64,000 nt of DNA, taken from Janthinobacterium sp. 64. GTDB lineage: Bacteria > Pseudomonadota > Gammaproteobacteria > Burkholderiales > Burkholderiaceae_D. Below, in pieces: positions 14,185-54,964 of the stretch. Made by a program: the position numbers and the translations under genes. A model generated the notes under the pieces. It had not been told where the DNA came from and made no database searches. It saw only the letters and a list, made by a program, of their open reading frames with translations. The stretch is taken from positions 1,550,001 through 1,614,000 of the forward strand of contig NZ_PHUG01000001.1 of NCBI RefSeq assembly GCF_002813325.1. Reading direction: 5' to 3'. How positions within the stretch are numbered: the first letter of the stretch is position 1; every line of letters starts with the position of its first letter.

Positions 14185-14261
14185 TGGTGCGGCTGGCAGG
14201 AATTGAACCCACGACCCCTTGGTTCGTAGCCAAGTACTCTATCCAGCTGAGCTACAGCCGC
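14185..14261 (-). tRNA. tRNA-Arg (anticodon ACG)
   Basis: A 77-nt cloverleaf with acceptor stem GCGGCTG pairing with CAGCCGC, D-arm GCTCAGCTGGATAGAGT, anticodon stem CTTGG/CCAAG with loop CTACGAA (anticodon ACG), T-loop GGTTCAATTCC, and an encoded CCA end. It is identical to the three tandem copies at 16824-17226, but has its own promoter and terminator. Confidence 0.97.
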
Positions 14262-14271
14262 CTAAGACAAG

Positions 14272-14299
14272 ATTATAGCAGGGCTTTGCGGAATGGCAA
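14272..14299 (-). promoter_or_regulatory. Sigma-70 promoter of the solitary tRNA-Arg gene
   Basis: On the minus strand: -35 TTGCCA (14294-14299), 16-nt spacer, perfect -10 TATAAT (14272-14277), 10 nt before the mature 5' end of the tRNA at 14261. Confidence 0.75.
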
Positions 14300-14533
14300 A
14301 GGGCGTGGCGGCACTATTTCACAATTGACGGCCTCCTCCTGTTTTTCAGGGGCCGACCCGGCCCGATCACTTGCATCTTTAATCATGTTTATTTTCTGAC
14401 TGCGGCGCAAAACCGACAAGCTTGTTTCTTCTTAGTCATTATCAATGCATCCATGAAAAATAAATTGCAATTCATGGCAAATTTTGAGAATGTTTACTGG
14501 CAGTAATTCCAAAAAAAATACCAAGGGGATGTC

Positions 14534-16690
14534 ATGAAAATAAACTTGCCTAAATTGCCGCTGGCTGCCGCCTGCGCCGCCACCTTCATGCTGGCCGCCT
14601 GTGGTGGCGGCAGCAGCAGCAGCAGCAGCCCCGCCGACCCGGCGCCACCCTTCGTGCCCGTCGTACCGGCGCCGGCAACGACGGTCAGCGGCACGGCCGC
14701 CGTCGGCGCGCCCATCACGGGCAGCGTCGTGGCCATCGATAGCAAGGGCAAAGTGTCGGTAGCGGTCAACACCGGCGCCGGTGGCGCCTTTACGGTCGAC
14801 GTGGCCGGCATGACGGCGCCGTTTTTCCTCAGCATCACCGGCACGTCCGGCGGCAAGCAAGTGACGCTCAATTCCATCGCCACCGCAGCGGGGCAAACCG
14901 TCAACATCACGCCGCTGACCGACCTGATCGTCTCCGCGGCGTCGGGCCAGCCCGGCGGCACGGCCCTGGCCACCGTCTGCGCCCCCGTCGCCAATGCGGT
15001 CTCGACCGCCTGCACGGCGGCGCTGGCTACTGCCGCGACCCAGCAACGGCTCGATGCGGCCGTGGCCGCCGTCGTCGCCATGATCAAACCGATTAATACC
15101 GGCAATACCAATCCGCTGACAGGCGCCTTTGTTGCCAACGGCACGGGCATGGATGCCGTGCTGGACCAGATCCTCGTCGCGCCCGCGGAAGCGCAAGGCG
15201 CCATGGCCACCGTCACCCTGATCGCCACCAACAGCGCGCTGGGCAGCGTGACCTTGCCCGCCACCGCCGGCGGCGCGCCGACGATACCGGCAGCGACGCC
15301 GCCATCGGATGCCGATCTGACCAAGGCGAGCGCCGCAGCCAGTGTCTTGCCGGAAATCCGCGCCTGCATGGCCTCGCTCAGCGCGCTGTATCCGAAGACG
15401 GGCTTCACCGTGCCGTCAACGGCGGCCGTGTTGCCGTTCATCGACAGCTCCTTCAATTTGGGGACAGGCGTGGGCCAGGCGGACATCCTGTCCGCCCTGA
15501 CCAGCCCGGACCAGGCCGCCCATGCGGGGCTGATGATCGAAGCACTGGGCTTGTCCAGCGTCAACATGCAACCCTTGAGCACGGATGAAATTGCCACGCT
15601 GACGTCCTCGTCCAGCACCTCGACAACGCGCGTCGCGGACTTCATCGGCAATCGCCTTGGCGCGGGAGCGACGGCCATCACCTTTACGGCAGGCAAACCG
15701 AGCAGTGCATGGGTGCAGTTGCGCATCGGTGGCGACGCGGGCATGCTCAACTGGAAACTGGTGAAGACCAGCGACACCAGTGCCTGCCCTGGCGGCTGGA
15801 AACTGGCCGGCAGCGGCCACCTGGACATGCACATGAATGCACGCATCGAGCGCAGTGTCGACGGCGCGGGCACGGCCAGTTTTGCGCGCGAATGGGCCGT
15901 GCACGTGGAACTCGACACCGTGCTGCAGGAGAATCCCGCCATCAACAAGATCGATGTGCGGGGACCGGGCCTGACGACGTTCGGCGACTTCCAGATACCG
16001 GGCACGGCCGGCAGCAAACTGCAGCTGATCCTGCCAGCGACCGGCTACACGCATATGCGGGTGGCCGACAGCAATGGCGCCGCCAGCGCTTTCTACAATA
16101 ATGCGGAAGCCATTCAAAGTTGCCAGGACCTGGCCGGCCTGCCCGCCAACACGCCGGGCCTGGGCGCCGGCACGGCCTGCATCGACGAGACGAAAGTCGC
16201 GCCGGGCAAGGTGTATGTCTGGACCCTGAAAACGCCGAATGGCCCCGTCAGCGCCTTCCCGTTCCAGATCAATGCCGTGCCGCTGTCGAAAGCCTTTGCC
16301 AGGGCCAACCAGGCCAGCCTGTTCGCCACGCTCACCGGCATCACGCCGGCGAAACTGTCGTCGCTCCCGGCCGCTACGCTGCTGGACGGCGCGGTGACCT
16401 TCAGCTACACGCAGTCTGCCACCTACGGCTCGAAAATGGATAATTGCGGCCTGCACTTGTTCAATGGCGCCACTACGGTGCTGAATGCGGAACAAAATGC
16501 GGTTGGACAAGAAACCTCGTGCACCTTCACGACCTCGGGCCTGAATTCCCTGGCATCGAATGTGCCGGACCCGACGCAATCGGGCGCTTCGCTGTTCAAG
16601 TTCACGGGCCCCGTGACGAATGGCGGACTGTGGCTGACCACCATCGTCCTGGGTAACCAGGCTTCCTCGGGCCAGCCTTATCCGAATTGA
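14534..16690 (+). CDS. Large surface/periplasmic lipoprotein of unknown function
   Basis: A 718-aa lipoprotein: signal peptide with lipobox FMLAACGGG (lipid Cys near residue 22) and a Ser/Pro-rich tether. Residues about 48-110 (VSGTAAVGAPITGSVVAIDS) look like a carboxypeptidase-regulatory / Ig-like beta domain as seen in many Oxalobacteraceae lipoproteins; the remaining 600 residues have no domain I recognise, though there are scattered Cys residues that could pair in the periplasm. AAGGGG lies 8 nt before the ATG. It sits alone between the solitary and tandem tRNA-Arg genes, on the opposite strand, behind an AT-rich region with a 7-bp inverted repeat (14451-14457 with 14471-14477). Confidence 0.8.
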   Translation: MKINLPKLPLAAACAATFMLAACGGGSSSSSSPADPAPPFVPVVPAPATTVSGTAAVGAPITGSVVAIDSKGKVSVAVNTGAGGAFTVDVAGMTAPFFLSITGTSGGKQVTLNSIATAAGQTVNITPLTDLIVSAASGQPGGTALATVCAPVANAVSTACTAALATAATQQRLDAAVAAVVAMIKPINTGNTNPLTGAFVANGTGMDAVLDQILVAPAEAQGAMATVTLIATNSALGSVTLPATAGGAPTIPAATPPSDADLTKASAAASVLPEIRACMASLSALYPKTGFTVPSTAAVLPFIDSSFNLGTGVGQADILSALTSPDQAAHAGLMIEALGLSSVNMQPLSTDEIATLTSSSSTSTTRVADFIGNRLGAGATAITFTAGKPSSAWVQLRIGGDAGMLNWKLVKTSDTSACPGGWKLAGSGHLDMHMNARIERSVDGAGTASFAREWAVHVELDTVLQENPAINKIDVRGPGLTTFGDFQIPGTAGSKLQLILPATGYTHMRVADSNGAASAFYNNAEAIQSCQDLAGLPANTPGLGAGTACIDETKVAPGKVYVWTLKTPNGPVSAFPFQINAVPLSKAFARANQASLFATLTGITPAKLSSLPAATLLDGAVTFSYTQSATYGSKMDNCGLHLFNGATTVLNAEQNAVGQETSCTFTTSGLNSLASNVPDPTQSGASLFKFTGPVTNGGLWLTTIVLGNQASSGQPYPN

Positions 16691-16772
16691 CGCCCCGTTG
16701 GCAGACTGACACGCGCCGCGCTGCCGGCGGCGCGTTTCAAGCGACAGTTTCAAGCGACAGTCTGGCTGGACG

Positions 16773-16808
16773 AAAAAAAACCCGGAAAGTTACCTTTCCG
16801 GGTTTTTT
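16773..16808. terminator. Bidirectional Rho-independent terminator
   Basis: AAAAAA-CCCGGAAAG-TTAC-CTTTCCGGG-TTTTTT forms a 9-bp GC-rich stem with A tract on one side and T tract on the other, so it works both for the lipoprotein gene (plus) and the three-gene tRNA-Arg transcript (minus). Confidence 0.9.
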
Positions 16809-16823
16809 CTGTACTGCTGATAC

Positions 16824-16900
16824 TGGTGCGGCTGGCAGGAATTGAACCCACGACCCCTTGGTTCGTAGCCAAGTACTCTATCCAGCTGAGCTACAGCCGC
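16824..16900 (-). tRNA. tRNA-Arg (anticodon ACG), tandem copy 3 (last in the transcript)
   Basis: The same 77-nt tRNA-Arg(ACG) sequence with encoded CCA as the copy at 14185. It is the promoter-distal gene of a three-copy transcript and is followed 15 nt later by the terminator at 16773-16808. Confidence 0.97.
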
Positions 16901-16990
16901 AAACTCTGACACACTTCGCCGGACGGCGCGAAGCTTGAAACTTTCATCAGAACGAAGCGAACTTCGTTCCGGCAAGGATACTGAAAATAC

Positions 16991-17067
16991 TGGTGCGGCT
17001 GGCAGGAATTGAACCCACGACCCCTTGGTTCGTAGCCAAGTACTCTATCCAGCTGAGCTACAGCCGC
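16991..17067 (-). tRNA. tRNA-Arg (anticodon ACG), tandem copy 2
   Basis: Identical 77-nt tRNA. The 90-nt spacer to the next copy (16901-16990) contains an 8-bp hairpin with a UUCG loop on the transcribed strand (16950-16969), possibly used in processing. Confidence 0.97.
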
Positions 17068-17149
17068 AAAACTTCTACAACATTCCATGAACAACATGGA
17101 GGTGAAACTTGTTACAACAAAACCAGGCAAAGTCTGATTTTCAGTATTC

Positions 17150-17226
17150 TGGTGCGGCTGGCAGGAATTGAACCCACGACCCCTTGGTTCGTAGCCAAGT
17201 ACTCTATCCAGCTGAGCTACAGCCGC
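17150..17226 (-). tRNA. tRNA-Arg (anticodon ACG), tandem copy 1 (first in the transcript)
   Basis: Identical 77-nt tRNA with encoded CCA, nearest to the promoter at 17237-17265. The spacer to the second copy is 82 nt and unlike the other spacer. Confidence 0.97.
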
Positions 17227-42400: not shown

Positions 42401-43261
42401 ATGCAATTACCCGCAAGCCTCGCCCATATCACGACGGAACAAGACTGGCAACATACGACAGCGTATCCACCGCTCGGATTTATCCCGTTTGCCGAAGGCG
42501 CGCTGGGCAATGGCGACACCTTCGGCCTGTACTGGCCCATCGGGCGCGAAGCGAGCGAGCCCATCGTCGTCGAGACCTGGCACGACGAGTGGCGCCTCCA
42601 GCCGCACTTTTCCAGCCTGGCGGCCTTCCTGCAAGCCCACGCGGCAGCGGAAGACGAGTATGTCGGCACGCCATCGCTGGCCGACGACCCCGCCTCGCCG
42701 CGCGCCGCCTTCCTGGAAGCCAGGGAACAGATCGCGCAGCGCAACCCAGCGGCGGCCATCGCCCTGCTGGAAGCGGCGCTGGCCATCGTGCCCGAATATA
42801 CGGACGCGCTGGTGCTGCTGCATGGCCAGTATGTGCGTGCGGGAAGAATCGATGCCGCCGTCAGGGTGGCCATCCAGGCCACCATCTCGCCGCCGTCCTT
42901 TGGCGGCCCGCCCCTGAAAGCCTTGCAATGGCTGCGCACGCAGGCGGTGCCGGACGGGGAACCTGACCCCATCTGGCGCACCTGCGGGCAGTTTTCGTTC
43001 CACTTTGGCGGCAGCAAGGAAAATGGGGATTACCCCGTGCTGCGGGCCGCCATCGACACTTATCTGGAACAAGGCAAGCATGTTGCTGCCTCGACCCTGA
43101 TGCAGACGTATGCGGAACTGATGAGCGCGGAAACCGTGTCCTTCCAGGAACGCTACGCCTTCGAGCCAGCCGCTTACATTGCGCGGCAAATCGCCGTCAG
43201 CGCGCAGCTGCCGCAAGGCAGCCGCGACCCTGCCATGCTATGGTCAGGCGGCCTGGCCTGA
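42401..43261 (+). CDS. SMI1/KNR4 (SUKH)-like protein with TPR-like segment
   Basis: A 286-aa soluble protein. Residues about 22-85 (PPLGFIPFAEGALGNGDTFG, then VVETWHDEWRLQPHFSSLAAF) match the SUKH fold used by many toxin-immunity proteins. Residues about 105-165 (AREQIAQRNPAAAIALLEAA, then YVRAGRIDAAVRVAIQA) look like tetratricopeptide-type helical pairs. No toxin gene is adjacent. The ATG at 42401 fits the domain; an in-frame ATG at 42365 adds 12 residues. Its last 18 bases overlap the convergent GlxA-type gene. Confidence 0.7.
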   Translation: MQLPASLAHITTEQDWQHTTAYPPLGFIPFAEGALGNGDTFGLYWPIGREASEPIVVETWHDEWRLQPHFSSLAAFLQAHAAAEDEYVGTPSLADDPASPRAAFLEAREQIAQRNPAAAIALLEAALAIVPEYTDALVLLHGQYVRAGRIDAAVRVAIQATISPPSFGGPPLKALQWLRTQAVPDGEPDPIWRTCGQFSFHFGGSKENGDYPVLRAAIDTYLEQGKHVAASTLMQTYAELMSAETVSFQERYAFEPAAYIARQIAVSAQLPQGSRDPAMLWSGGLA

Positions 43262-44236
43262 CTGCTGCCGGAACAGCTTGCGATACGCCGACGGCGACGT
43301 CTGCAAGTTGGCCCGGAAATGCTGGCGCAGCGACAACGCCGTGCCGAAACCGGCCTCTTGCGCCACGACATCGATCGAGGCCGCGCTCTTTTCCAGCATG
43401 CCTTGCGCATGCGCAAGACGCTGGTTCAGCAGCCATTGCTTGAAGGACGTACCCGTGGCCTGGCGGAAATGGCGCGTAAAGTTGCGCCGGCTCATGGCGG
43501 CCTGTTCGGCCAGTGCGTCGATGCTGTGCGCCTGGCCCAGGCTGGCCGTCACGCAGGCCAGCACCTCGGCAAAGCGCCCTTCGCTGCCGGACACGGGCAA
43601 GGGACGCGCGATGAATTGCGCCTGCCCGCCCTGGCGGTGCGGCGCCACCAGCAGGCGGCGCGCCACGCGGTTCGCCACCTCGGCGCCCGCCAGCTGGCGC
43701 AGCAGGTACAGACAGCAATCGAGGCCGGCCGCCACGCCGGCCGACGTCAGCACGGCGCCATCGTCCACGTACAGCACTTCCCGGTCCACCCTGACCCTGG
43801 GATAGCGGGCCGCCAGCCGGTCCGCCATGCCCCAGTGCGTGGCCGCGCTCTTGCCATCCAACAAGCCTGCCTGCGCCAGCGGAAACGCGCCCAGGCACAG
43901 GCCCACCATGCGCGCGCCGCGCCCACTGGCCGCCTGCAATGCCGCGACCAGCGGCGCCGCCGCATCGCGGCAATCGTCGTGCCAGGCCGGCATGATGACG
44001 ATATCGGCGCCTTCCAGCCCTTCCAGGCCGAACTCGGGCGTGATGGAAAAGCCGGCCGCCGTGCGCAACGGTGCGGGATCGGCGGCGCACACGCGCACGT
44101 GGAAAGGCGGCAGATCGGCCTCGTCCGTCTGGGCGCCAAACACGAGGCAAGGCACGGACAGGTGAAACGGCGTCATGCCGTCGAAGGCGATCACGGCGAT
44201 GCACAAGGGAGCGGCAAGGGCAAGAGTAGTAGTCAT
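43244..44236 (-). CDS. GlxA/FtrA-type transcriptional regulator (DJ-1/PfpI + AraC HTH)
   Basis: A 330-aa regulator with an N-terminal class-I-glutamine-amidotransferase/DJ-1-like domain (about 12-185, nucleophile-elbow motif MVGLCLGAFPLAQAG) and a C-terminal AraC helix-turn-helix pair (about 225-325: IDALAEQAAMSRRNFTRHFR and IDVVAQEAGFGTALSLRQHF). Such regulators often control a neighbouring catabolic gene; here the divergent isochorismatase-like gene at 44349 is the obvious target. Confidence 0.9.
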   Translation of the reverse strand: MTTTLALAAPLCIAVIAFDGMTPFHLSVPCLVFGAQTDEADLPPFHVRVCAADPAPLRTAAGFSITPEFGLEGLEGADIVIMPAWHDDCRDAAAPLVAALQAASGRGARMVGLCLGAFPLAQAGLLDGKSAATHWGMADRLAARYPRVRVDREVLYVDDGAVLTSAGVAAGLDCCLYLLRQLAGAEVANRVARRLLVAPHRQGGQAQFIARPLPVSGSEGRFAEVLACVTASLGQAHSIDALAEQAAMSRRNFTRHFRQATGTSFKQWLLNQRLAHAQGMLEKSAASIDVVAQEAGFGTALSLRQHFRANLQTSPSAYRKLFRQQSGQAA

Positions 44237-44348
44237 GGCCCGATTTTATCGCACATAGGCCTTCGGGCCACTTTTTATTTCAATCACGCGGCCTGAGAAT
44301 GGCGTTATCGAGGAGCTGTTTCCCCTTTCAACCATTCAGGAGTCACGC

Positions 44349-44987
44349 ATGTCCAACACTACCGCCCCGCGCCGCGCCTTGCTCGTCATCGATGTACAAA
44401 ACGAATACTTCACGGGCGACATGCCCATCGAATATCCATCCGTCGACATTTCCCTGCCGAACATCGTCACCGCCATGGCCGCCGCCCGCGCCGCCGGCGT
44501 GCCCGTGATCGTCGTCCAGCACGACGCGCCGGAAGCCTCGCCCATCTTCGCCAGGGGCAGCGACGGCTGGCAGTTGCATCCGCAAGTGGCGTCCTTTGCC
44601 GCCGACCACCGCATCAACAAAAGCATGGGCAGCGCCTTTGCGGGCACGGACTTGCGCGCCTGGCTCGATAGCCACGGTATCGACACCCTGACGGTGATCG
44701 GCTACATGACGCACAACTGCGACGCGGCCACCATCTACCACGCCGCGCACGACGGCTTGCAAGTCGAGTTCCTGCAAGACGCCACCGGCACCCTGCCCTA
44801 CGCCAACGCGGGCGGCACGGCCAGCGCCGAGGAAATCCACCGCGTCTTTTGCGCCGTCTTCCACTCGAACTTCGCCGCCGTCGCCAGCACGCAGGACTGG
44901 ATCGAGGCAGTACGCGAAGGCAAGCCTCTGGAAATAGACAATATTTATCTGTCGAACCAGCGCGCGCGCAAGGCGCAGGCGAACTGA
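44349..44987 (+). CDS. Isochorismatase-family cysteine hydrolase
   Basis: A 212-aa cytosolic hydrolase. The catalytic triad of the family is visible: Asp in LLVIDVQNEYF, Lys in HRINKSMGSAF and Cys in VIGYMTHNCDAATIYHAAH. Members hydrolyse amides or vinyl ethers (nicotinamidase, isochorismatase and others); the substrate here is not clear. It is divergent from the GlxA-type regulator across 112 bp and has AGGAG upstream of its ATG. Confidence 0.9.
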   Translation: MSNTTAPRRALLVIDVQNEYFTGDMPIEYPSVDISLPNIVTAMAAARAAGVPVIVVQHDAPEASPIFARGSDGWQLHPQVASFAADHRINKSMGSAFAGTDLRAWLDSHGIDTLTVIGYMTHNCDAATIYHAAHDGLQVEFLQDATGTLPYANAGGTASAEEIHRVFCAVFHSNFAAVASTQDWIEAVREGKPLEIDNIYLSNQRARKAQAN

Positions 44988-45041
44988 CGCGGGTGGGAAT
45001 GGGCGGGTATCATGCGTCCATTCCCTATTTGATGATGAGCG

Positions 45042-45602
45042 ATGCGAAAATTAATTGTGCTGGGCTCAAGCGCTGTTGGCTTGTTCCTGCTGGCCACGGC
45101 GGCCCTGGTGCTGACGGGCCTGAACGACAAACTGGCCTCCGCCGACGTGATCGTCGTGCCCGGCAACACTATCCTGCCTGACGGCACGCCCAGCCCCCGC
45201 CTGCAGGCGCGGCTCGACGCGGCGCTGACACAGTTCCAGAAACACAGGGCGCCGCGCATCCTCGTCAGCGGGGCGACGGGCAAGGAAGGTTTTGACGAGG
45301 CCGCGTCCATGGCCCGCTACCTGCTCAAGCGCGGCGTGCCGGCTGGCGCCATCATCGAAGATAATCAAGGCTGGACGACGGAAGCCACGGCGCGCAACGC
45401 GGCGCAACTGATGCGCCAGCACGGCTGGCAGACGGCCATGGTCGCCACGCAGTATTTCCACGTGCCCCGCTTCCGCCTGGCGTTGCAACGGGCCGGCATC
45501 AGCGTGAGCGGCAACGTGCACGCGCCCTACTTCGAGCTGCGCGACCTGTATTCCGTGCCGCGCGAAACGGTGGGTTATGCCGTGTATTTCGCGCGGCCAT
45601 AA
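45042..45602 (+). CDS. YdcF/SanA/ElyC-family (DUF218) protein
   Basis: A 186-aa protein with one N-terminal membrane helix (LIVLGSSAVGLFLLATAALV) and a DUF218 domain: ADVIVVPGN, PSPRLQARLDAA, RILVSGATGKEGFDEAASMA and QYFHVPRFRLAL. This fold is linked to envelope integrity (SanA, ElyC), but biochemistry is poorly known. It is the last conserved gene before the viperin cassette. Confidence 0.87.
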   Translation: MRKLIVLGSSAVGLFLLATAALVLTGLNDKLASADVIVVPGNTILPDGTPSPRLQARLDAALTQFQKHRAPRILVSGATGKEGFDEAASMARYLLKRGVPAGAIIEDNQGWTTEATARNAAQLMRQHGWQTAMVATQYFHVPRFRLALQRAGISVSGNVHAPYFELRDLYSVPRETVGYAVYFARP

Positions 45603-45632
45603 ATAGGCACTACTGCGATAGGCACTACTGCG
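45603..45632. repeat. Perfect 15-bp tandem duplication at the left edge of the viperin cassette
   Basis: ataggcactactgcg occurs twice head to tail (45603-45617 and 45618-45632), immediately after the YdcF-family stop codon. A small hairpin (cctgcc-N10-ggcagg) follows within 10 bases. Confidence 0.9.
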
Positions 45633-45735
45633 GCCTGCCTGCCAAAGGGCGCTGGCAGGGACGGACATGGCCAGCCAGGATGTTCATCAGCCCTGTGCCA
45701 GAACAACAACGGTGGCAAAAGGGCGGGCGGCCATT

Positions 45736-46662
45736 TCATACTTTCAGATCAGCCAACTCGCCTGTGTAGCGGGAACAAAACTTCGTCGCCGACACATTGA
45801 TCTGGGAAAATGCCCTGGCGGCACCGACGTCGAGAATGGAATCGCTATATCGATAGCCTTTTTCCCCAGGTATGTTCTGAAAGAAGCGGCCATAGGGGTC
45901 TATCATCAAATAGGACTCGGTCATGTCGGCGTTATCCTCCACACGGACGCAATGATCAAGGTGGGCATGGCGCCGGACAAAGGTGTCAAATTGCGCGTCA
46001 GACAAGGCCAGGTCATCCGTAATTTTGGGTAGCATGCGCAGGATTTTCCATTTCTCCGGCGCCAGAGTGCCAATCAAGTTGCTCATGTCTTCTTGCCAGT
46101 TCAATGCGTTGACGACAGTATTGATCTTTAGCCGAAGCAGGGGATTGATCTGCCGGCCCAAAGCAATCATGTCAACCCAATCAGGCCTCGACAGCGTGCG
46201 CAGCTGGCGGTCAACTCGTCCGATATCCAGATTAGTCTTCGCTTCCGAGGAGTCCAGGCTCAGCCCCAATATGGCAAGATGGGGCGCCAGCACTTGCATC
46301 AAGGCAGGCGTCAGACGACTGCCATTACTGATAATGGAGGTCTCAAGACCCAATCGCCGGGCATGCCGGATGACGTCCAGCGCTTTCTCGGCATACAGCA
46401 GCGGTTCCCCGCCAGCGAGATTGAGCCGCAGCGATGTCCAATGCATGCCGGCCCACAGCGGGTTGCCGGAATTACCAGGTTTAAAAAAACGTCCCACTTC
46501 CTCGACCAATGCCTTGATGGCGGCGCCATCGTGTATCAACTCCTGCGTCGAACCGCCATCGTCCCACTTTGCATAGCAATAGCGGCAGCCATAATTACAC
46601 ACTTCGGTAACATGCCAATTGACGACGAGTTCGCGTACGGACATGGTGGGGGTAAGGCTCAC
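45736..46662 (-). CDS. Prokaryotic viperin: antiviral radical SAM ddhNTP synthase
   Basis: A 308-aa radical SAM enzyme. The [4Fe-4S] cluster motif CxxxCxxC is at Cys22, Cys26 and Cys29 (VNWHVTEVCNYGCRYCYAKW), the SAM motif GGEP at 84-87 (LNLAGGEPLLY), and further family pieces are SIISNGSRLT, LGLSLDSS, LKINTVVNALN and WKILRMLP. The C-terminal part (SDAQFDTFVRRH, ESYLMIDPYGRF, SILDVGAARAF) aligns by eye with the viperin-specific C-terminal region, which ordinary radical SAM proteins lack. Viperins convert an NTP to 3'-deoxy-3',4'-didehydro-NTP, a chain terminator of phage transcription. The GTG start at 46662 is backed by GGAG 6 nt upstream. Usual co-located nucleotide kinase is absent; the divergent neighbour is an ankyrin-repeat protein. 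Confidence 0.88.
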   Translation of the reverse strand: MSLTPTMSVRELVVNWHVTEVCNYGCRYCYAKWDDGGSTQELIHDGAAIKALVEEVGRFFKPGNSGNPLWAGMHWTSLRLNLAGGEPLLYAEKALDVIRHARRLGLETSIISNGSRLTPALMQVLAPHLAILGLSLDSSEAKTNLDIGRVDRQLRTLSRPDWVDMIALGRQINPLLRLKINTVVNALNWQEDMSNLIGTLAPEKWKILRMLPKITDDLALSDAQFDTFVRRHAHLDHCVRVEDNADMTESYLMIDPYGRFFQNIPGEKGYRYSDSILDVGAARAFSQINVSATKFCSRYTGELADLKV

Positions 46663-46849
46663 GGCACACTCCGGTTGTTTGATCAGTCCTCACGATACCC
46701 AGAAAGTTACTCAAAAACCATGAAAAATCCCGCCCCCTCCCCTCGAGATTTGACATTTACAGCGATATCCATGGAAAAGAGGGGGTGGGGACGAGAAGTT
46801 TCCGTGACACCAGCACGAGCAACGTGGGAACATTATTGCAATCAAAACA

Positions 46850-49606
46850 ATGAAAGCAAAAAAAACAATGGCAACCATTCCTAGCTTTGAAGCGCTGTTA
46901 CTTGAAATCCATCAAAGCCTTGATTTAGGTCCCTATTCAAGCAAGGTCAAGGACAAATTCGCCAATCTCGGCATGCGCAACAAAAACCACAAAGACATGG
47001 CGGCCAATGTTTGTGGCGCCATCTTTAATAGCCTGGATATGGATGCTGCAGCTTGCCGAGATGCGGTCCTGGGAATGAGCGAATGGGAGGGGTACCACAA
47101 GGCTGTTGAACTCAACACATGGACCTCGAATGCAGACCAGCACCAAGTGGTATGGCATCTTCTCGGATACTGCTATGTTCCGGCCTTGGCCCGCAGAATC
47201 GCGTTCTGGAATCTCGACGGCGCATTCGACAAGGGAATGCCAGGCGGAGCATTCTGGTTCTTGCCTCACGTCAATATCACCACGGGAACAATGGAGCTGC
47301 CTGTGCCTCACGTTGTCGACTGGCTCATCGACCTGCTGGACTGCTCCATCGGCAAGGCAGGCGTCGGGACAGGATTGCCTGGTGACGACAATACCGACAG
47401 GGACTCCATCGTCAGGAACTTGCACAACTGGAAAAACGCATCTATCCCGCGCGTCCATTCGATCAATGGATACTTCTCTGACGGCGCCAAACTGGTGTTC
47501 AAAGGCGTATTTGAACTTGCAGAAGATCTTGCTGATGACGCCAAGTTTGAAGCGGCCCTCGCCTTCATTCAATTCAGAAATTTATCTGCGGACGACCTTC
47601 GCGATCAGATTCCGATGACACAGCCGGGGCGGCTTGAAGCTATCATGGATGAATCGGCCACCGATGAGGAGAAACAGCTTTTCGTGCAGGCACTGTTGAC
47701 ACGCTATGCAAAGCCAGGCATGGCCATGATCCGGCAGCGACTGCGGGTCGCCCGCATGGTGCAGGATGGATACATCAGATTGCTGAAGTTCCTCTGCCCG
47801 GGCGTACAGGCCACTTGTACGGACCCGTCTCAGAACAAGCTGCTGCAATTGGCGGGAATCTTCGGCACCGTCTACAATCTGACTGTTGATGCTTGGAAAA
47901 ATTCCGACACGCAAGATGAGGAAGACATCCTGTTCGAATCACGGCTGGCCCCCTGGGACAAGGCGGACATCTTTCTCTCGATCTTGCCTTCCATTAAAAA
48001 CGAGCGGCATCTCCCCGTGGCCGACCTGCTGACGCGCCGGTTCGCGAAACTCGCTGATGGCGATGCCCTGGAAGACCTCGTCGCACTCGACATGCACACT
48101 GCCACAACCCTTATCGCAAGCAAATGCCGGCGATTGAAGGAAGAGCATGAAGAAAACATGCGATTACACTCCTTGCTGGAGCGGGTCCGTACCGCCTCAC
48201 CTTGGCGGGCGCTCCAGGGTGAAGCCAGCTATGCCGTCGTCAGCCATATTGCCAATTCGACCACTCCCCCTGCAAAAACCAGGTTGCTGGCGATGCAACG
48301 GTTGCGGGAATTAGCGGCAACGCCCGCGGAAATGGTTGGCGCGATTGTCCTGGAACTGGCCGAACTGTTGAATTGCCCTCACACGAACAGGCCAAGCGAT
48401 GTCCGGCAACAGGTGGAAGCGCTCCTAGCAGATGCCGAAACCAGCGCTGGCCATACGACATGGAAGGCGCCCTTGCTGCAGTACCGCGCCAAGCACTTGC
48501 TGGCACAAAACGCGTTCGACGATGCGGCAAAGCTGATGCGGGCAGCACTCGAAGCTTGCAACGATGGAAACTTCGGCACACTGCGCGGTGAAATCGCCAG
48601 GGATGCGTTTGCCATCGAAGTTGCCAATCTGGGCCTAATTCCTGCCAACCACGAAAAATACCATCGCAATATGCTTGCCTATGGCATGTTTCAGGGCCAG
48701 GTGACATCACTGGAAGACACCGCCGTATGGGTGTCGGAGTATTTCTGGGACGACCTTTACAAGCCCTATCCTGGCATGGAGAGCGTGCAGCCATTGGCAA
48801 AAAAACAGGCGGAGGCATTCATCCAGGAAGCGCTTCCTGTCATCATCGAAGGTAACTGGGATGCCTTGAAGCAGTGGATGAAACACCATGCCAAAACGCT
48901 CAAACAAGGCACTATCCGTGAGGTGCGCAGCAACACCGTGCTCATGGCGTGGCTGAAGATGCAGGATGAATTTGCAAGACAGCTGCCCATACTGCGTGCT
49001 GCGGTCTCTTCCGATCTGCAAGGCGAAATAAGCAAGGTGGAAAAGTTGGTGGCCCATTGGCGCCATGCCATTCATCTGTTGGTTGAAGCATGGCCCAAAC
49101 AAGTCAACATGGCAGACTTCAAAGGACAGACGCCCTTGATGATGGTGGCCGATGCCAGCGATGAGCAACTGACTCTGGCGTTCCTGAATGCCGGCGCCGA
49201 TGTGAATGCCCAGGACTACCTGGGACGCACCGCCTTGCATGCGGCGGTTACTGCCCGGTCAAAAAACTGTGTTTCCATGCTGTTGACACATCAGGCGGAC
49301 ACGTCCAGAGTCACCTACGATGAAGCGAACACCGCACTCCATACGGCCGCGCGCATGGGCTACGCCGACATCGTAGCCCTTGTGATCGAACATCATGCAC
49401 ACCTCGTAGCAAAGGAAAACTCGTTTCACCAGACACCGTTGGAATTGGCAAAAAAGATAATGATTGACTTGCCAGGCTTCCGGAATATGATGGCAACACA
49501 CCATAGGCGCAGCATTGGATCAACACAGGATTTCGATCAAATTATTGCAATGCTGACAGACACTGCATGCGATGATCAGCTCGGCAAAAAGAAAAATGCC
49601 AGCTAA
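46850..49606 (+). CDS. Large ankyrin-repeat protein of unknown function next to viperin
   Basis: A 918-aa soluble protein, no signal peptide or membrane helix. Residues about 754-870 form three to four ankyrin repeats (FKGQTPLMMVADASDEQLTL, LGRTALHAAVTARSKNCVSM, NTALHTAARMGYADIVALVI). The first 750 residues are a mostly helical region I cannot assign, with a conserved-looking Trp/Pro/Gly-rich part near 115-150 (NLDGAFDKGMPGGAFWF). The gene is divergent from viperin over 187 bp, looks less GC-rich than its neighbours, and its stop codon abuts the glpK stop with no gap. ATG 46850 and ATG 46868 are both possible starts; neither has a good ribosome binding site. I infer a role in defence from context only. 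Confidence 0.75.
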   Translation: MKAKKTMATIPSFEALLLEIHQSLDLGPYSSKVKDKFANLGMRNKNHKDMAANVCGAIFNSLDMDAAACRDAVLGMSEWEGYHKAVELNTWTSNADQHQVVWHLLGYCYVPALARRIAFWNLDGAFDKGMPGGAFWFLPHVNITTGTMELPVPHVVDWLIDLLDCSIGKAGVGTGLPGDDNTDRDSIVRNLHNWKNASIPRVHSINGYFSDGAKLVFKGVFELAEDLADDAKFEAALAFIQFRNLSADDLRDQIPMTQPGRLEAIMDESATDEEKQLFVQALLTRYAKPGMAMIRQRLRVARMVQDGYIRLLKFLCPGVQATCTDPSQNKLLQLAGIFGTVYNLTVDAWKNSDTQDEEDILFESRLAPWDKADIFLSILPSIKNERHLPVADLLTRRFAKLADGDALEDLVALDMHTATTLIASKCRRLKEEHEENMRLHSLLERVRTASPWRALQGEASYAVVSHIANSTTPPAKTRLLAMQRLRELAATPAEMVGAIVLELAELLNCPHTNRPSDVRQQVEALLADAETSAGHTTWKAPLLQYRAKHLLAQNAFDDAAKLMRAALEACNDGNFGTLRGEIARDAFAIEVANLGLIPANHEKYHRNMLAYGMFQGQVTSLEDTAVWVSEYFWDDLYKPYPGMESVQPLAKKQAEAFIQEALPVIIEGNWDALKQWMKHHAKTLKQGTIREVRSNTVLMAWLKMQDEFARQLPILRAAVSSDLQGEISKVEKLVAHWRHAIHLLVEAWPKQVNMADFKGQTPLMMVADASDEQLTLAFLNAGADVNAQDYLGRTALHAAVTARSKNCVSMLLTHQADTSRVTYDEANTALHTAARMGYADIVALVIEHHAHLVAKENSFHQTPLELAKKIMIDLPGFRNMMATHHRRSIGSTQDFDQIIAMLTDTACDDQLGKKKNAS

Positions 49607-51100
49607 TCATTCGCTCCAGTCGCGCGAGCGCTCCACGGCCCGCTGCCATTTGTGCAGCCGGCTCAAGCGTTCATCGGCTGCCATGGCCGGCTCGAAACGG
49701 CGTCCCACCTGCCACTGGGCGGCGATTTCTTCCTGCGATGCCCAGAAACCCACGGCCAGGCCCGCCAGGTAGGCGGCGCCCAGGGCCGTCGTTTCCGTCA
49801 CCACGGGACGCACCACGGGCACATTTAATATGTCGGCCTGGAACTGCATCAGCATGTCGTTGCGCGCCGCGCCGCCATCGACGCGCAATTCACTCAAGGC
49901 GATGCCCGCATCATCCTGCATGGCGGACAACACGTCGACGTTCTGGTAAGCCACGCCCTCCAGCGCCGCGCGCGCGATGTGGGCCTTGCCCGTGCCGCGC
50001 GTGATGCCGATCAGGGTGCCGCGCGCATATGGGTCCCAGTACGGCGCGCCGAGTCCGGCGAACGCGGGCACGAAGACCAGGCCGCCCGAATCGGGCACGC
50101 TGGTGGCCAGCGCTTCCACTTCGGACGAGTCGCGGATGATGCCCAGGCCATCGCGCATCCACTGCACGGCCGCGCCCGCAATGAAGGCGCTGCCTTCGAG
50201 CAAATAATCGGTTTGATTGGCATCCGTCCCCAGGCTCCAGCCCACCGTCGTCAACAGCCGGTTTTTCGATGGCAAGGGGCGCTTGCCCACGTTCATCAGC
50301 ATGAAGCAGCCCGTGCCGTAGGTATTTTTCGCCATGCCAGGCTTTAAACACACCTGGCCAAACGTGGCGGCCTGCTGGTCGCCCGCGATGCCGGCAATCG
50401 GCACGGAGATACCCAGCAGGTCAACGTGCGTGTGCGCGGCCACGCCGCTCGATGGCACGACGTCGGGCAGCAGCGAGGCGGGAATGCCCAGCAGCGCCAG
50501 CAGATCCGTGTCCCACTGCAAAGTATGAATGTTGAACAGCATGGTGCGCGCCGCGTTGCTCGTGTCCGTCAAGTGGGCGCCGCTCATCTTGTAGATCAGC
50601 CAGCTGTCGATGGTGCCGAAGGCCAGTTCTCCCCGCTCGGCGCGCGCGCGGGCGCCGGGAACGTTGTCGAGCAGCCATTTCAATTTAGTCGCGGAAAAAT
50701 AGGCGTCCAGCACCAAGCCCGTCTTTTGCTGGATCACGTCCGCCTTGCCCTGCCCGACCAGCTGCTCGCAATAGGCCGCATTTCTACGGTCTTGCCAGAC
50801 GATGGCGTTGGCGACGGGCTCGCCCGTGGCGCGGTCCCACAGCACCGTCGTTTCGCGCTGGTTGGTCACGCCGATGGCGGCCACCTCGCTTGCCGCCACG
50901 CCGCTGTCGCGCAGCAACTGCTGCAGCACGCCTTCTTGCGAAGCCCAGATTTCGTTCGCGTCATGCTCGACCCAGCCCGGCTGGGGGAAAATCTGGCGAA
51001 ATTCGCGCTGCGCGCTGGCGTGCGGCCGGCCCGCATGGTCAAACAGGATGGCACGCGAACTGGTGGTGCCCTGGTCTAAAGCAAGTATGTATTTGGTCAT
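49607..51100 (-). CDS. glpK: Glycerol kinase
   Basis: A 497-aa FGGY-family kinase that phosphorylates glycerol to glycerol-3-phosphate. It starts with [19 protein letters not shown]; the substrate region has [15 protein letters not shown] and IVWQDRR, and ATPase motifs [12 protein letters not shown] and [20 protein letters not shown] are conserved. The start at 51100 is the family N-terminus; a longer reading from 51139 is unlikely. It is the last gene of the glycerol operon, 80 bp after the solute-binding protein gene. Confidence 0.95.
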
Positions 51101-51180
51101 GGTCGCTACTACGTCTATACAGTGAAGAGGCACGGGCAAGCGCCCGTGCCCCGGGACAACGGCGGCAGAAGTTTACACGA

Positions 51181-52909
51181 CTACCTTACCTTGCCCTCTT
51201 TCCAAGCCTGCAATAATTTATCGTAGGCAATCGTTTCACCCTTCGGCTTTTCATTCGCCAGCTTTTTCCATGGAGCGTGCTGGTCCGACAGATACTGGTT
51301 CGGATCGCCCTTGGCATTGAGCTTGGGGGCGCACGCCTTCATGCCGGCACGCTGCAGGCGCGCCATGACCTGGTCCATTTCCTCGGCCAGGTTATCCATG
51401 GCGGCCTGCGGCGTTTTTTTCCGCCGTAATGGCCGTGGCCACGTTTTTCCACCACAACTGGGCCAGCTTCGGATAGTCGGGCACGTTGTTGCCCGTCGGC
51501 GTCCACGCCACTCTGGCGGGGCTGCGGTAGAACTCGATCAAGCCGCCGTATTCGTTCGCGTGCTTCGTGAAGTAATCGTGGCGGATGTCGGAATCGCGAA
51601 TAAAAGTCAGGCCGACGATGGATTTCTTCAGCGACACGGTTTTCGACGTGACGAATTGCGCGTACAACCAGGCGGCAGCCTTGCGGTCATCGGGCGTGGA
51701 CTTGAACAGGAACCAGGAACCGACGTCCTGGTAGCCGTTCTGCATGCCCTCTTTCCAGTACGGGCCGTGCGGCGACGGCGCCATGCGCCATTTCGGCGTG
51801 CCGTCCTTGTTCACCACTGGCAAGCCCGGTTTCGTCATGCCAGCCGTAAATGCCGTGTACCAAAAGATTTGCTGGGCGATTTCACCCTGCGCCGGCACGG
51901 GGCCCGCTTCCGAGAAATTCATGCCGTTCGCCTGCGGCGGCGCGTATTTCTTCATCCAGTCGATGTATTTCGTCAGCGCATACACGGCCGCCGGCGAATT
52001 GGTGGCGCCGCCGCGTGAAACGGACGCGCCGACGGGTGTGCACTTGTCGGCCGCCACCTTGATGCCCCACTCGTCGACGGGCAAGCCATTCGGGATGCCC
52101 TTGTCGGCCGCGCCAGCCATCGACAGCCACGCATCCGTGAAGCGCCAGCCCAGGGATGGATCTTTCTTGCCATAATCCATGTGGCCATACACTTTCTTGC
52201 CGTCCAGTTCCTTCACGTCATTGGTGAAGAAGTCGGCGATGTCTTCATACGCGGACCAGTTCTGCGGCACGCCCAGCTCGTAGCCATACTTGGCCTTGAA
52301 CTTGGCTTGCAAATCCTTGCGCGCGAACCAGTCGGCGCGGAACCAGTACAGGTTGGCAAATTGCTGGTCGGGCAGCTGGTACACCTTGCCGTCGGGCGCC
52401 GTGGTAAAACTGATGCCGATGAAATCTTTCAGGTCCAGGCCGGGATTGGTAAATTCCTTGCCCTTGGCGGCCATGTAGTCGGACAGCGGCTCGACGGCGC
52501 CATAGCGGTAGTGCGTGCCGATCAGGTCGGAATCGGAAATCCAGCCGTCATAGATGCTCTTGCCGGACTGCATGGAGGTTTGCAGCTTTTCCACCACATC
52601 GCCTTCCTGGATGATGTCGTGGCGCACCTTGATGCCCGTGATTTCCTCGAAGGCCTTGGCCAGGGTCTTCGATTCGTAGACGTGGGTGTCGATGGTTTCC
52701 GAGACCACGGAAATTTCCTTGATGCCCTTGGCTTTCAGCTTGGCGGCCGCATCGATGAACCACTGCATTTCAGCAAGCTGTTGCTGCTTGCTCAGGCTGG
52801 ATGGCTGGAATTCCTTGTCGATCCAGGTTTGCGCCTGCTTGGCGTCGGCCAGGGCCGCATTCGACACGAGCATGGCCGCAGCCGCGAAGACCGTGAACTT
52901 CAATTTCAT
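51181..52909 (-). pseudogene. glpV: Glycerol ABC transporter solute-binding protein, frameshifted near the 3' end
   Basis: A periplasmic binding protein of about 576 aa (signal peptide FTVFAAAAMLVSNAALA; type-1 sugar/polyol-binding fold) interrupted by one extra base. The frame runs 505 residues to a TAA at 51392; the last 70 or so residues (MDNLAEEMDQVMARLQRAGM onward, to 51181) continue in another frame. Reading six instead of seven A at 51414-51420 (T on the plus strand) joins ITAEK to TPQAAMDNLAEEM in one smooth protein. It is either a sequencing error, a real mutation, or a slippage site. Position within the glp locus and similarity of layout to the rhizobial glpSTPQUV glycerol importer give the name. 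Confidence 0.82.
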
Positions 52910-52972
52910 CGTGAATCTCCTTTTTAGTTGTCATCTGGCCTGCGATAGCGGGCCAGTGTTCTCATCTACGAC

Positions 52973-53275
52973 TTATCCCCAACGCATTACCACCAACAAC
53001 ACTACAAAACTGATGCCGGCCCCGATGGCCTGCTGCATTTCCGTAAACCCCGCCCACGCCAGATTCACATACGCGGCCGTGAGTAAACCAATGAACAGCC
53101 TGTCGCCGCGCGTCGTCGGCATGGGCAAAAAGCCCTTGCGTGCTATGCTGGGCGAACGGATTTGCCACACCGTCATGCCAGCGAGCATCAAGCCGATGCA
53201 GATGAAGAAGATGGCCACTTCCGGCGTCCACGCCATCCAGCCGAACAGGCTGGCTGTGCTATCGGTATTTTCCAT
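52973..53275 (-). CDS. DUF2160 small membrane protein of the glycerol ABC transporter locus
   Basis: A 100-aa protein with three membrane segments (PEVAIFFICIGLMLAGMTVW, FIGLLTAAYVNLAWAGF, GAGISFVVLLVVM) and the DUF2160 opening FGWMAWTPEVAIFF. It is placed between permease and binding-protein genes, where the rhizobial glycerol importer has its small membrane protein (glpU); its role is not known. It starts one base after the permease stop. Confidence 0.85.
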   Translation of the reverse strand: MENTDSTASLFGWMAWTPEVAIFFICIGLMLAGMTVWQIRSPSIARKGFLPMPTTRGDRLFIGLLTAAYVNLAWAGFTEMQQAIGAGISFVVLLVVMRWG

Positions 53276-53276
53276 G

Positions 53277-54079
<803 letters not shown>

Positions 54080-54083
<4 letters not shown>

Positions 54084-54964
54084 TTCTGGTCTCCCGTGCC
54101 GACTCTCTGCATCCACGTGTACAGCACAAAGCAGAACAGCAGGATGATCAGGAAGTAAATCAATGAAAACGCGGACGCCGGCCCCAGATCGAACTGGCCG
54201 ACGGCCTTTTGCGTCAGGTATTGCGACAAAAAGGTGGTGGCATTGCCCGGTCCGCCACCGGTCAGTACGAACGGTTCCGTGTAGATCATGAAACTGTCCA
54301 TGAAGCGCAGCAAGACGGCGATCATCAGCACATTGCGCAGTTTCGGCAGCTGGATGTAGCGGAATACGGCCAGGCGCGAGGCGCCATCGATGCGCGCCGC
54401 CTGGTAATACGCGTCGGGGATGGCGCGCAAGCCCGCATAGCACAGCAGCACAACGAGAGGCGTCCAGTGCCAGATATCCATCACCATCACCGTCAGCCAG
54501 GCGTCGAGCGAATTGCCGTTGTAATTGTAATCAAAACCCAATTGATTCAAGGTGTAGCCCATCAGGCCGATGTCGCCACGGCCAAAGATTTGCCAGATGG
54601 TGCCCACCACGTTCCAAGGGATCAAGAGGGGCAGCGCGATCAGCACCAGGGCGAGGGACGCCTTCCAGCCATCGGCCGGCATGCACAGGGCAATCAGGAT
54701 ACCGAGCGGAATCTGGATGGCCAGCACGGAACCGGAAAACAGCAACTGGCGCAGCAAGGCGCTGTGCAAGTCGCCGTCCAGCATGACCATGCGGAACCAC
54801 TCGGTACCGACGAAGACCTTTTGCGTGGGGCTCAGAATATCTTGCACGGAATAGTTCACCACCGTCATCAGGGGCAGGATGGCGGAAAAGGCCACGCACA
54901 GCAGCACGGGCAGAATCAGCAGCCAGGCACGGCGGTTGTTATCGGTTTTACCGTTATGTATCAT
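54080..54964 (-). CDS. glpP: Glycerol ABC transporter permease (first subunit)
   Basis: A 294-aa MalF-like permease with six helices. EAA loop: IPDAYYQAARIDGASRLAVF. The start ATG at 54964 overlaps the TGA of the ATPase gene (TGATG); the open frame extends further upstream only as out-of-frame reading of that ATPase. It heads the permease pair in the operon. Confidence 0.87.

Follow-up and report, generated by a model that had tools for sequence, protein, structure and literature searches.

A stretch of 64,000 nucleotides from Janthinobacterium sp. 64 (contig NZ_PHUG01000001.1, positions 1,550,001 to 1,614,000; hereafter the window) carries two divergent genes, one encoding a prokaryotic viperin (pVip) and the other a large ankyrin-family protein. 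Together, these genes form a two-gene, low-GC insertion, and sequence comparison indicates that the divergent viperin-ankyrin unit is real and widespread in Proteobacteria. The unit may represent a mobile antiphage cassette in which the ankyrin protein acts as sensor or regulator and the viperin as effector; we place the probability of this assignment at roughly one half. An earlier note on this DNA had described the two open reading frames (ORFs; 308 aa on the minus strand and 918 aa on the plus strand, with 187 bp between the listed starts), and this description stands. The features under discussion are:

45601..49606, segment of ~4.0 kb absent from congeners, between the ydcF-like (DUF218) and glycerol-kinase-like genes (from congeners and composition)
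45736..46662, minus strand, prokaryotic viperin, 308 aa, GTG start (from NF038283, PADLOC PDLC02903, tree and motifs)
46729..46789, unstranded, weak version of the paired inverted repeat of this family (arms at 46729-46739 and at 46779-46789, spacer 39 nt)
46850..49606, plus strand, ankyrin-family partner, 918 aa as listed, 912 aa from the probable start at 46868 (from PADLOC PDLC02908 and conserved Met7)
46850..48799, plus strand, core all-helical domain, residues 1-650, TPR-like over ~430-630 only; stands without the repeats in some relatives
49115..49603, plus strand, C-terminal ankyrin repeats, about residues 756-918

The insertion and its absence from congeners

Nine congeneric stretches were fetched (L100-L107 and L109, chosen from the 39 genomes that gave a match). 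All nine align at both flanks and contain nothing of 45601-49604. The distance between the flanks is 10-23 bp in L100, L101, L105, L106 and L107, 154 bp in L102, 161 bp in L103 and 396 bp in L109; in L104, 1597 bp of different sequence lies there. Composition also sets the segment apart: the cassette genes have a GC content of 0.54 and a third-position GC content (GC3) of 0.63-0.64, as compared to 0.65-0.66 and 0.82-0.83 in the two flanking genes. The gap between ydcF and glpK may be a recurrent insertion site.

Three further observations concern this region. Positions 1363-2960 of L104 (congener G782) hold 1.6 kb of sequence foreign to the window at the insertion site, with a 406-codon open frame. 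A direct repeat, GGCACTACTGCG, occurs in two copies at window ~45606-45632, on the left edge of the insertion. A promoter and terminator scan returned 5 promoter-like sites against 2.8 expected.

Identity of the viperin

Viperin is among the few antiviral enzymes common to animals and bacteria, and its chemistry yields chain-terminating 3'-deoxy-3',4'-didehydro-nucleoside triphosphates (ddhNTPs). The earlier note had assigned the 308-aa protein to this family from its Cys motif and GGEP motif, an assignment that is borne out. The protein matches the curated equivalog NF038283 (cut-off 180) at 341 bits, and the PADLOC model for pVip 'not associated with kinases' (PDLC02903) at 323 bits, above the 280 bits of the model 'associated with kinases'. 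The solved viperin-like enzyme 7n7h is likewise a sequence match (E 1e-25). The radical SAM motif CxxxCxxC reads CNYGCRYC from residue 22 (C22-C29) and GGEP begins at 84; further motifs at 147 (IGR), 179 (KINT), 205 (WK) and 250 (SYL) presumably line the nucleotide pocket.

Phylogenetic placement gives the same answer. A tree was built from 46 viperin rows, comprising 34 ankyrin-linked rows (32 of the 41 linked loci, L112 and the window) and 12 unlinked rows, together with 4 MoaA rows. The viperin and MoaA rows split at 100/100 with the window protein inside the viperins, as the earlier identification implied, and its nearest neighbour is the Glaciimonas viperin L009 (77% identity). Ankyrin-linked viperins cluster in the tree, yet are not one clade (5 changes against a shuffled mean of 13.7). 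A MoaA identity was rejected: TIGR02666 scores 33 bits (cut-off 284) versus 341 for the viperin model, and the tree separates the two as well. Taken in aggregate, model scores, motifs and tree indicate that the 308-aa protein is a true member of the prokaryotic viperins, ordinary for its family. The earlier remark that no kinase accompanies it also holds: by Pfam, the 8 neighbouring ORFs scanned (43247-54443) include no nucleotide kinase, and the sole kinase among them is an FGGY carbohydrate kinase.

Pairing of the two genes across genomes

Ankyrin-family loci were collected by two conserved peptide patterns, giving 75 loci that are a non-random set in which near-relatives inflate the counts. 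Two of these, L082 and L083, were too weak to keep, leaving 73, of which 61 are assessable, having an intact N-terminus and 2.2 kb or more of upstream sequence. A viperin gene is divergent from and adjacent to the ankyrin gene, in what is here called the slot, in 38 of these 61 loci. Among the 12 loci that are not assessable, three have a viperin in the slot (L052, L055 and L068), and L067 has a viperin and a HicA-like gene beside a cut ankyrin gene. Hosts of the collected loci are Beta-, Gamma- and Alphaproteobacteria. The gap between the viperin and ankyrin matches was measured between the edges of the hidden Markov model hits. Of the 41 loci measured, 40 have a gap of 111-233 bp; the exception is L027 (692 bp), where genes lie in between.

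Distances between paired proteins are correlated: r=0.92 for viperin and ankyrin protein (n=39, window included), and r=0.85 for viperin and HicA-like and r=0.86 for ankyrin and HicA-like protein (n=28 for both), all at the floor of 2000 permutations and with common descent of the hosts still contained in each value. Divergence correlated with that of viperin, together with a repeat architecture typical of binding proteins, would suit a viperin-binding protein that serves as scaffold or maturation partner. This role is highly improbable, given that 23 of the 61 ankyrin relatives lack a neighbouring viperin and that several viperins have no ankyrin partner.

Co-occurrence was also measured in a sample of 399 genomes of the order, in which the viperin (E 1e-35) is found in 5 genomes, the ankyrin family (E 1e-60) in 7 and both in 4; the ankyrin matches of G424 and G428 are partial, and G588 has the pair on separate contigs, with a partial viperin match (177 bits). 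When the window's own genome is set aside, the remaining 398 divide into 3 with both, 3 with the ankyrin family only, 1 with viperin only and 391 with neither (Fisher p=7.6e-6), which is the co-occurrence the earlier note had looked to. This sample overlaps the collected loci (G476 looks like L027, G588 like L019 and G552 like L034), so the locus count and the order co-occurrence are not independent tests. The congener insertion, the divergent pairing and the order co-occurrence contradict the possibility that the genes are chance neighbours, and they uphold the earlier proposal that the ankyrin gene is a co-acquired partner of the viperin.

Architecture of the ankyrin-family protein

The PADLOC model 'Ankyrin' (PDLC02908) matches the protein at 961 bits, with residues 7-901 aligned to positions 1-879 of 880. 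Met7 is an invariant column across 38 aligned rows, and the two closest homologues are 912 aa long. Met7 is the conserved start, so translation probably begins at window 46868, making the intergenic region ~205 bp and not 187 bp. Ankyrin repeats are confined by Pfam to the last ~160 residues (best stretches: Ank_2, 741-819; Ank_5, 824-867), in keeping with the C-terminal position given in the earlier note. Some relatives, ~640-675 aa as called, have no repeats: L037, L038, L060, L061, L065, L068, L072, L076 and L081. One of these, L037, matches PDLC02908 over 1-644 at 662 bits. Because both kinds match this model, repeat-bearing and repeat-less proteins are one family; because some members stand without repeats, the 650-aa helical domain is the family core.

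Several other identities and origins were considered and rejected. Similarity to Dot/Icm-type ankyrin effectors is limited to the repeat region, at no more than 37 bits against cut-offs of 450-1400. No enzyme domain is found by Pfam, and a Foldseek search with residues 1-650 returns nothing at E <=0.001 (best 0.048); the fold search by VIA barely covers the protein outside 430-630, where a known fold could still lie. As to a phage-borne origin, the two patterns find no relative of the ankyrin protein in the viral contig collection, other phage collections not having been searched. A single-protein scan of genome contigs with the ankyrin protein also returned no relatives. Three Acinetobacter plasmids (NZ_CP032112.1, NZ_CP082144.1 and NZ_CP061557.1) carry relatives at 38-41% identity.

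An inverted repeat upstream of the ankyrin gene

An inverted repeat scoring at least 11 is present in 24 of 66 ankyrin upstream segments. Among shuffles, 2 of 330 reach this score, and among regions upstream of other genes, 6 of 270 do (Fisher 5e-14 against the latter); the count includes near-relatives and was made in the same loci in which the repeat was found. In these 24 repeats, arms of 11-26 bp flank a spacer of 18-46 nt; for 21 of them, the end of the right arm lies 53-66 bp upstream of the gene. The arms vary between loci and are complementary within each locus. The element may be an operator pair or an RNA hairpin; the comparison fits either.

Exchange of genes in the divergent slot

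In the 38 viperin loci, the extra gene is HicA-like in 30, zinc-ribbon-like in 6, and HicA-like together with a WG-repeat gene in 1; the remaining locus (L032) has none of these. The HicA-like ORF thereby follows viperin in 31 loci (65-126 aa as called over all loci having one), and its start overlaps the viperin stop by 4 bp in 24 of these 31. Three examples match the PADLOC 'HicA-like' model PDLC02910 (E 5e-33, 3e-22 and 6e-21); against Pfam HicA_toxin (cut-off 27), one scores 29 bits, one 18 bits and one is unmatched. After the window viperin, the next gene is 133 bp away and no HicA-like ORF is seen, and PDLC02910 has no match in the window's own genome, nor in 14 control genomes. G470 also has viperin and ankyrin genes without a HicA-like gene.

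Related arrangements are seen beyond these counts. The zinc-ribbon-like protein (so named by eye) is Cys-rich, 96-117 aa long, and replaces the HicA-like protein after viperin in L055-L057, L064 and L073-L075; it also follows viperin in L005 and L007, whose genomes are without the ankyrin family. On the Sulfitobacter plasmid NZ_CP025811.1 (L127, typed conjugative), viperin is followed by a HicA-like match, with no ankyrin family.

The frequency of HicA-like genes raises the question of whether the ankyrin protein is an antitoxin that restrains the HicA-like, RNase-type protein, with viperin a second passenger. Of the 38 viperin loci, 31 also have a HicA-like gene in the slot, and 7 of the 23 loci without viperin keep one there, as such a role would allow. 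The window and G470 nevertheless retain the ankyrin gene without a HicA-like gene, and G557 and L127 have viperin and HicA-like genes without the ankyrin family, which makes an antitoxin improbable.

The viperin-less loci have a second recurrent occupant. An ORF of 27-37 aa with the core NWPSKTGxxSGGGRGNNPP or a variant is present in 11 of these 23 loci versus 1 of the 38 viperin loci (L027), a difference (Fisher p=3e-5) counted in the loci in which the peptide was found. A HicA-like gene, this Gly/Asn/Pro-rich peptide of ~28 aa, or both occupy the slot in 12 of the 23. Across the collected loci, the peptide is divergent to the ankyrin gene in L010, L011, L014, L020, L034, L035, L042, L049, L050, L060, L069, L080 and L027; in L027, the peptide, WG-repeat protein, viperin and HicA-like protein are encoded in one divergent run. 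A search at E 0.01 finds the peptide in 9 of the 399 genomes, five of which match at 0.003-0.006 only. As a family it is unmatched in NCBIfam and Pfam (two examples) and in PADLOC (one example).

Other small ORFs were noted in passing. In L124 (7057-7600), the peptide precedes a HicA-like gene, and the 10.8-kb stretch contains no match to the ankyrin family; peptide and HicA-like gene may be a unit of their own. In L059, where Drt1a lies on the opposite side, the slot holds a pair of similar Asn/Gln-rich ORFs (45-47 aa); in L060 and L061 it holds a 44-aa acidic ORF.

That slot content varies while the ankyrin gene stays fits one constant sensor or regulator with exchangeable partners. A broader version of this idea is put forward tentatively, as possible and still rather unlikely: the ankyrin family would be a modular platform which, via the shared inverted-repeat element, controls a slot exchanging viperin, HicA-like, WG-repeat and zinc-ribbon-like proteins and the ~28-aa peptide, with the ankyrin repeats as an optional recognition module on the 650-aa helical core.

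Role of the ankyrin protein

Ten viperin-less loci, chosen by the authors, were scanned for neighbours. In line with the defence role in the earlier note, some ankyrin homologues do lie near other defence genes, with clear PADLOC neighbours in 4 of the 10: type III restriction in L018, TmtA in L024, type I restriction in L031 and Drt1a in L059. Weak matches were seen in L043 (DrmC/PLD, <=24 bits), which brings the loci with a defence neighbour to five of the ten, and in L040 (23 bits). Restriction, TmtA or Drt1a genes adjoining viperin-less members, as well as the solitary ankyrin gene of G798 described below, would be consistent with the ankyrin protein being a defence effector itself, which travels with viperin and shares the intergenic region while acting separately. 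We regard this as unlikely: across Beta-, Gamma- and Alphaproteobacteria, the two genes are paired divergently at a conserved spacing and the distances of their proteins correlate, and no toxic or enzymatic domain was found in the ankyrin protein by Pfam or Foldseek.

A sensor or regulator is preferred because the ankyrin gene is constant in the collected set (a set itself collected by the ankyrin gene), because no enzyme-like feature was found in the protein, and because the gene faces a repeat-bearing intergenic region in many relatives. In the proposed mechanism, the two divergent genes would be a mobile cassette against phages. Viperin would be the effector and, by family membership, would produce ddhNTPs as terminators of phage transcripts; the ankyrin protein would be the constant partner, which would sense infection or control the divergent operon or its products. 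In most viperin-bearing relatives, the HicA-like gene would be a possible second effector, one that the window does not have.

Several observations weigh against a sensor or regulator role coupled to viperin. The ankyrin gene has no adjacent viperin in 23 of the 61 assessable loci, and 11 of these 23 have neither the HicA-like gene nor the peptide. In congeneric genomes, the ankyrin family is present in 2 of 40 (own included); in the second, G798, the ankyrin gene has no viperin, HicA-like or zinc-ribbon-like gene within 14 kb, and lies on a different contig from glpK. The family is found in none of five non-own viperin genomes (four of the class sample, and G557), two of which give ankyrin-repeat cross-matches of <=43 bits and no true family member, and in none of the seven plasmid viperin stretches fetched (of 14 plasmid viperins). 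Five of the ten scanned loci show no defence neighbour, clear or weak, and four of the ten (L021, L034, L039 and L050) have no PADLOC match beside the ankyrin gene. The window's own inverted repeat is weak, with a score of 8 that 8 of 400 shuffles also attain at 50-70 bp, the distance being measured from the listed ATG at 46850 and not from Met7. Finally, no DNA-binding, ligand-binding or P-loop family was found in the ankyrin protein by Pfam.

We know of no settled account of how bacteria control viperin chain terminators. A large partner that is inherited with viperin, and elsewhere stands with other genes in the slot, is a concrete candidate for such control. The two-gene insertion and the congeners without it would make a convenient system for testing this.

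Surrounding genes

By Pfam, the 8 flanking ORFs comprise an AraC-type regulator, an isochorismatase, DUF218 (YdcF-like), the FGGY carbohydrate kinase (49607-51139, a glycerol kinase by eye) and transport proteins, with 1 of the 8 unmatched. No further defence gene is seen among them by Pfam, PADLOC not having been run on these ORFs. Elsewhere in the window, four tRNA-Arg(ACG) genes with the same 77-base sequence lie in 14185-17226.

Comparison with known systems

The earlier note had suggested that the pair may be an undescribed module, and this holds in part. A literature search on viperin or pVip with ankyrin, covering titles, abstract starts and passages with supplements outside its scope, found no published description of the pair. 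PADLOC-DB 2.0.0 (2023), however, already models the ankyrin family (PDLC02908) and the HicA-like family (PDLC02910), numbered near the viperin models PDLC02903-02905 and beside PDLC02907 'TPR' and PDLC02909 'Csa3', and hicA beside viperin is itself published. Working from PADLOC output, PMC12988326 refers, in the part consulted, to a viperin system type that includes a TPR protein. This type makes a viperin-ankyrin type in PADLOC likely, and the latter is thus probably catalogued there already. The consulted passages of PMC10865869 (Gerdes 2024) place hicA beside viperin in classes 9 and 10 and credit its earlier notice to Bernheim 2021; the word ankyrin has 0 occurrences in that text.

Among known pVip systems (NF038283 / PDLC02903), the window viperin is a clear member. 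In contrast to kinase-associated pVip systems, it is accompanied by a divergent ankyrin protein, with no nucleotide kinase in the 8 flanking ORFs. Relative to the PDLC02908 set (with PDLC02907 'TPR' and PDLC02910 'HicA-like'), the window ankyrin protein matches near end to end, whereas the HicA-like member is missing. Likewise, ankyrin relatives share the hicA-downstream layout of classes 9 and 10 as given in those passages of Gerdes 2024 (4-bp overlap in 24 of 31), whereas the window has no hicA directly downstream of viperin, the layout of class 10. A final comparison is with the RRNPP peptide sensors (Rap, PlcR and ComR), taken here to be marked by a TPR domain, a helix-turn-helix or Rap-type domain at the N-terminus and a gene for a cognate peptide: RRNPP sensors are among the fold matches, of weak similarity, to the TPR-like part of the ankyrin protein at 430-630, and some ankyrin relatives adjoin a short peptide gene.

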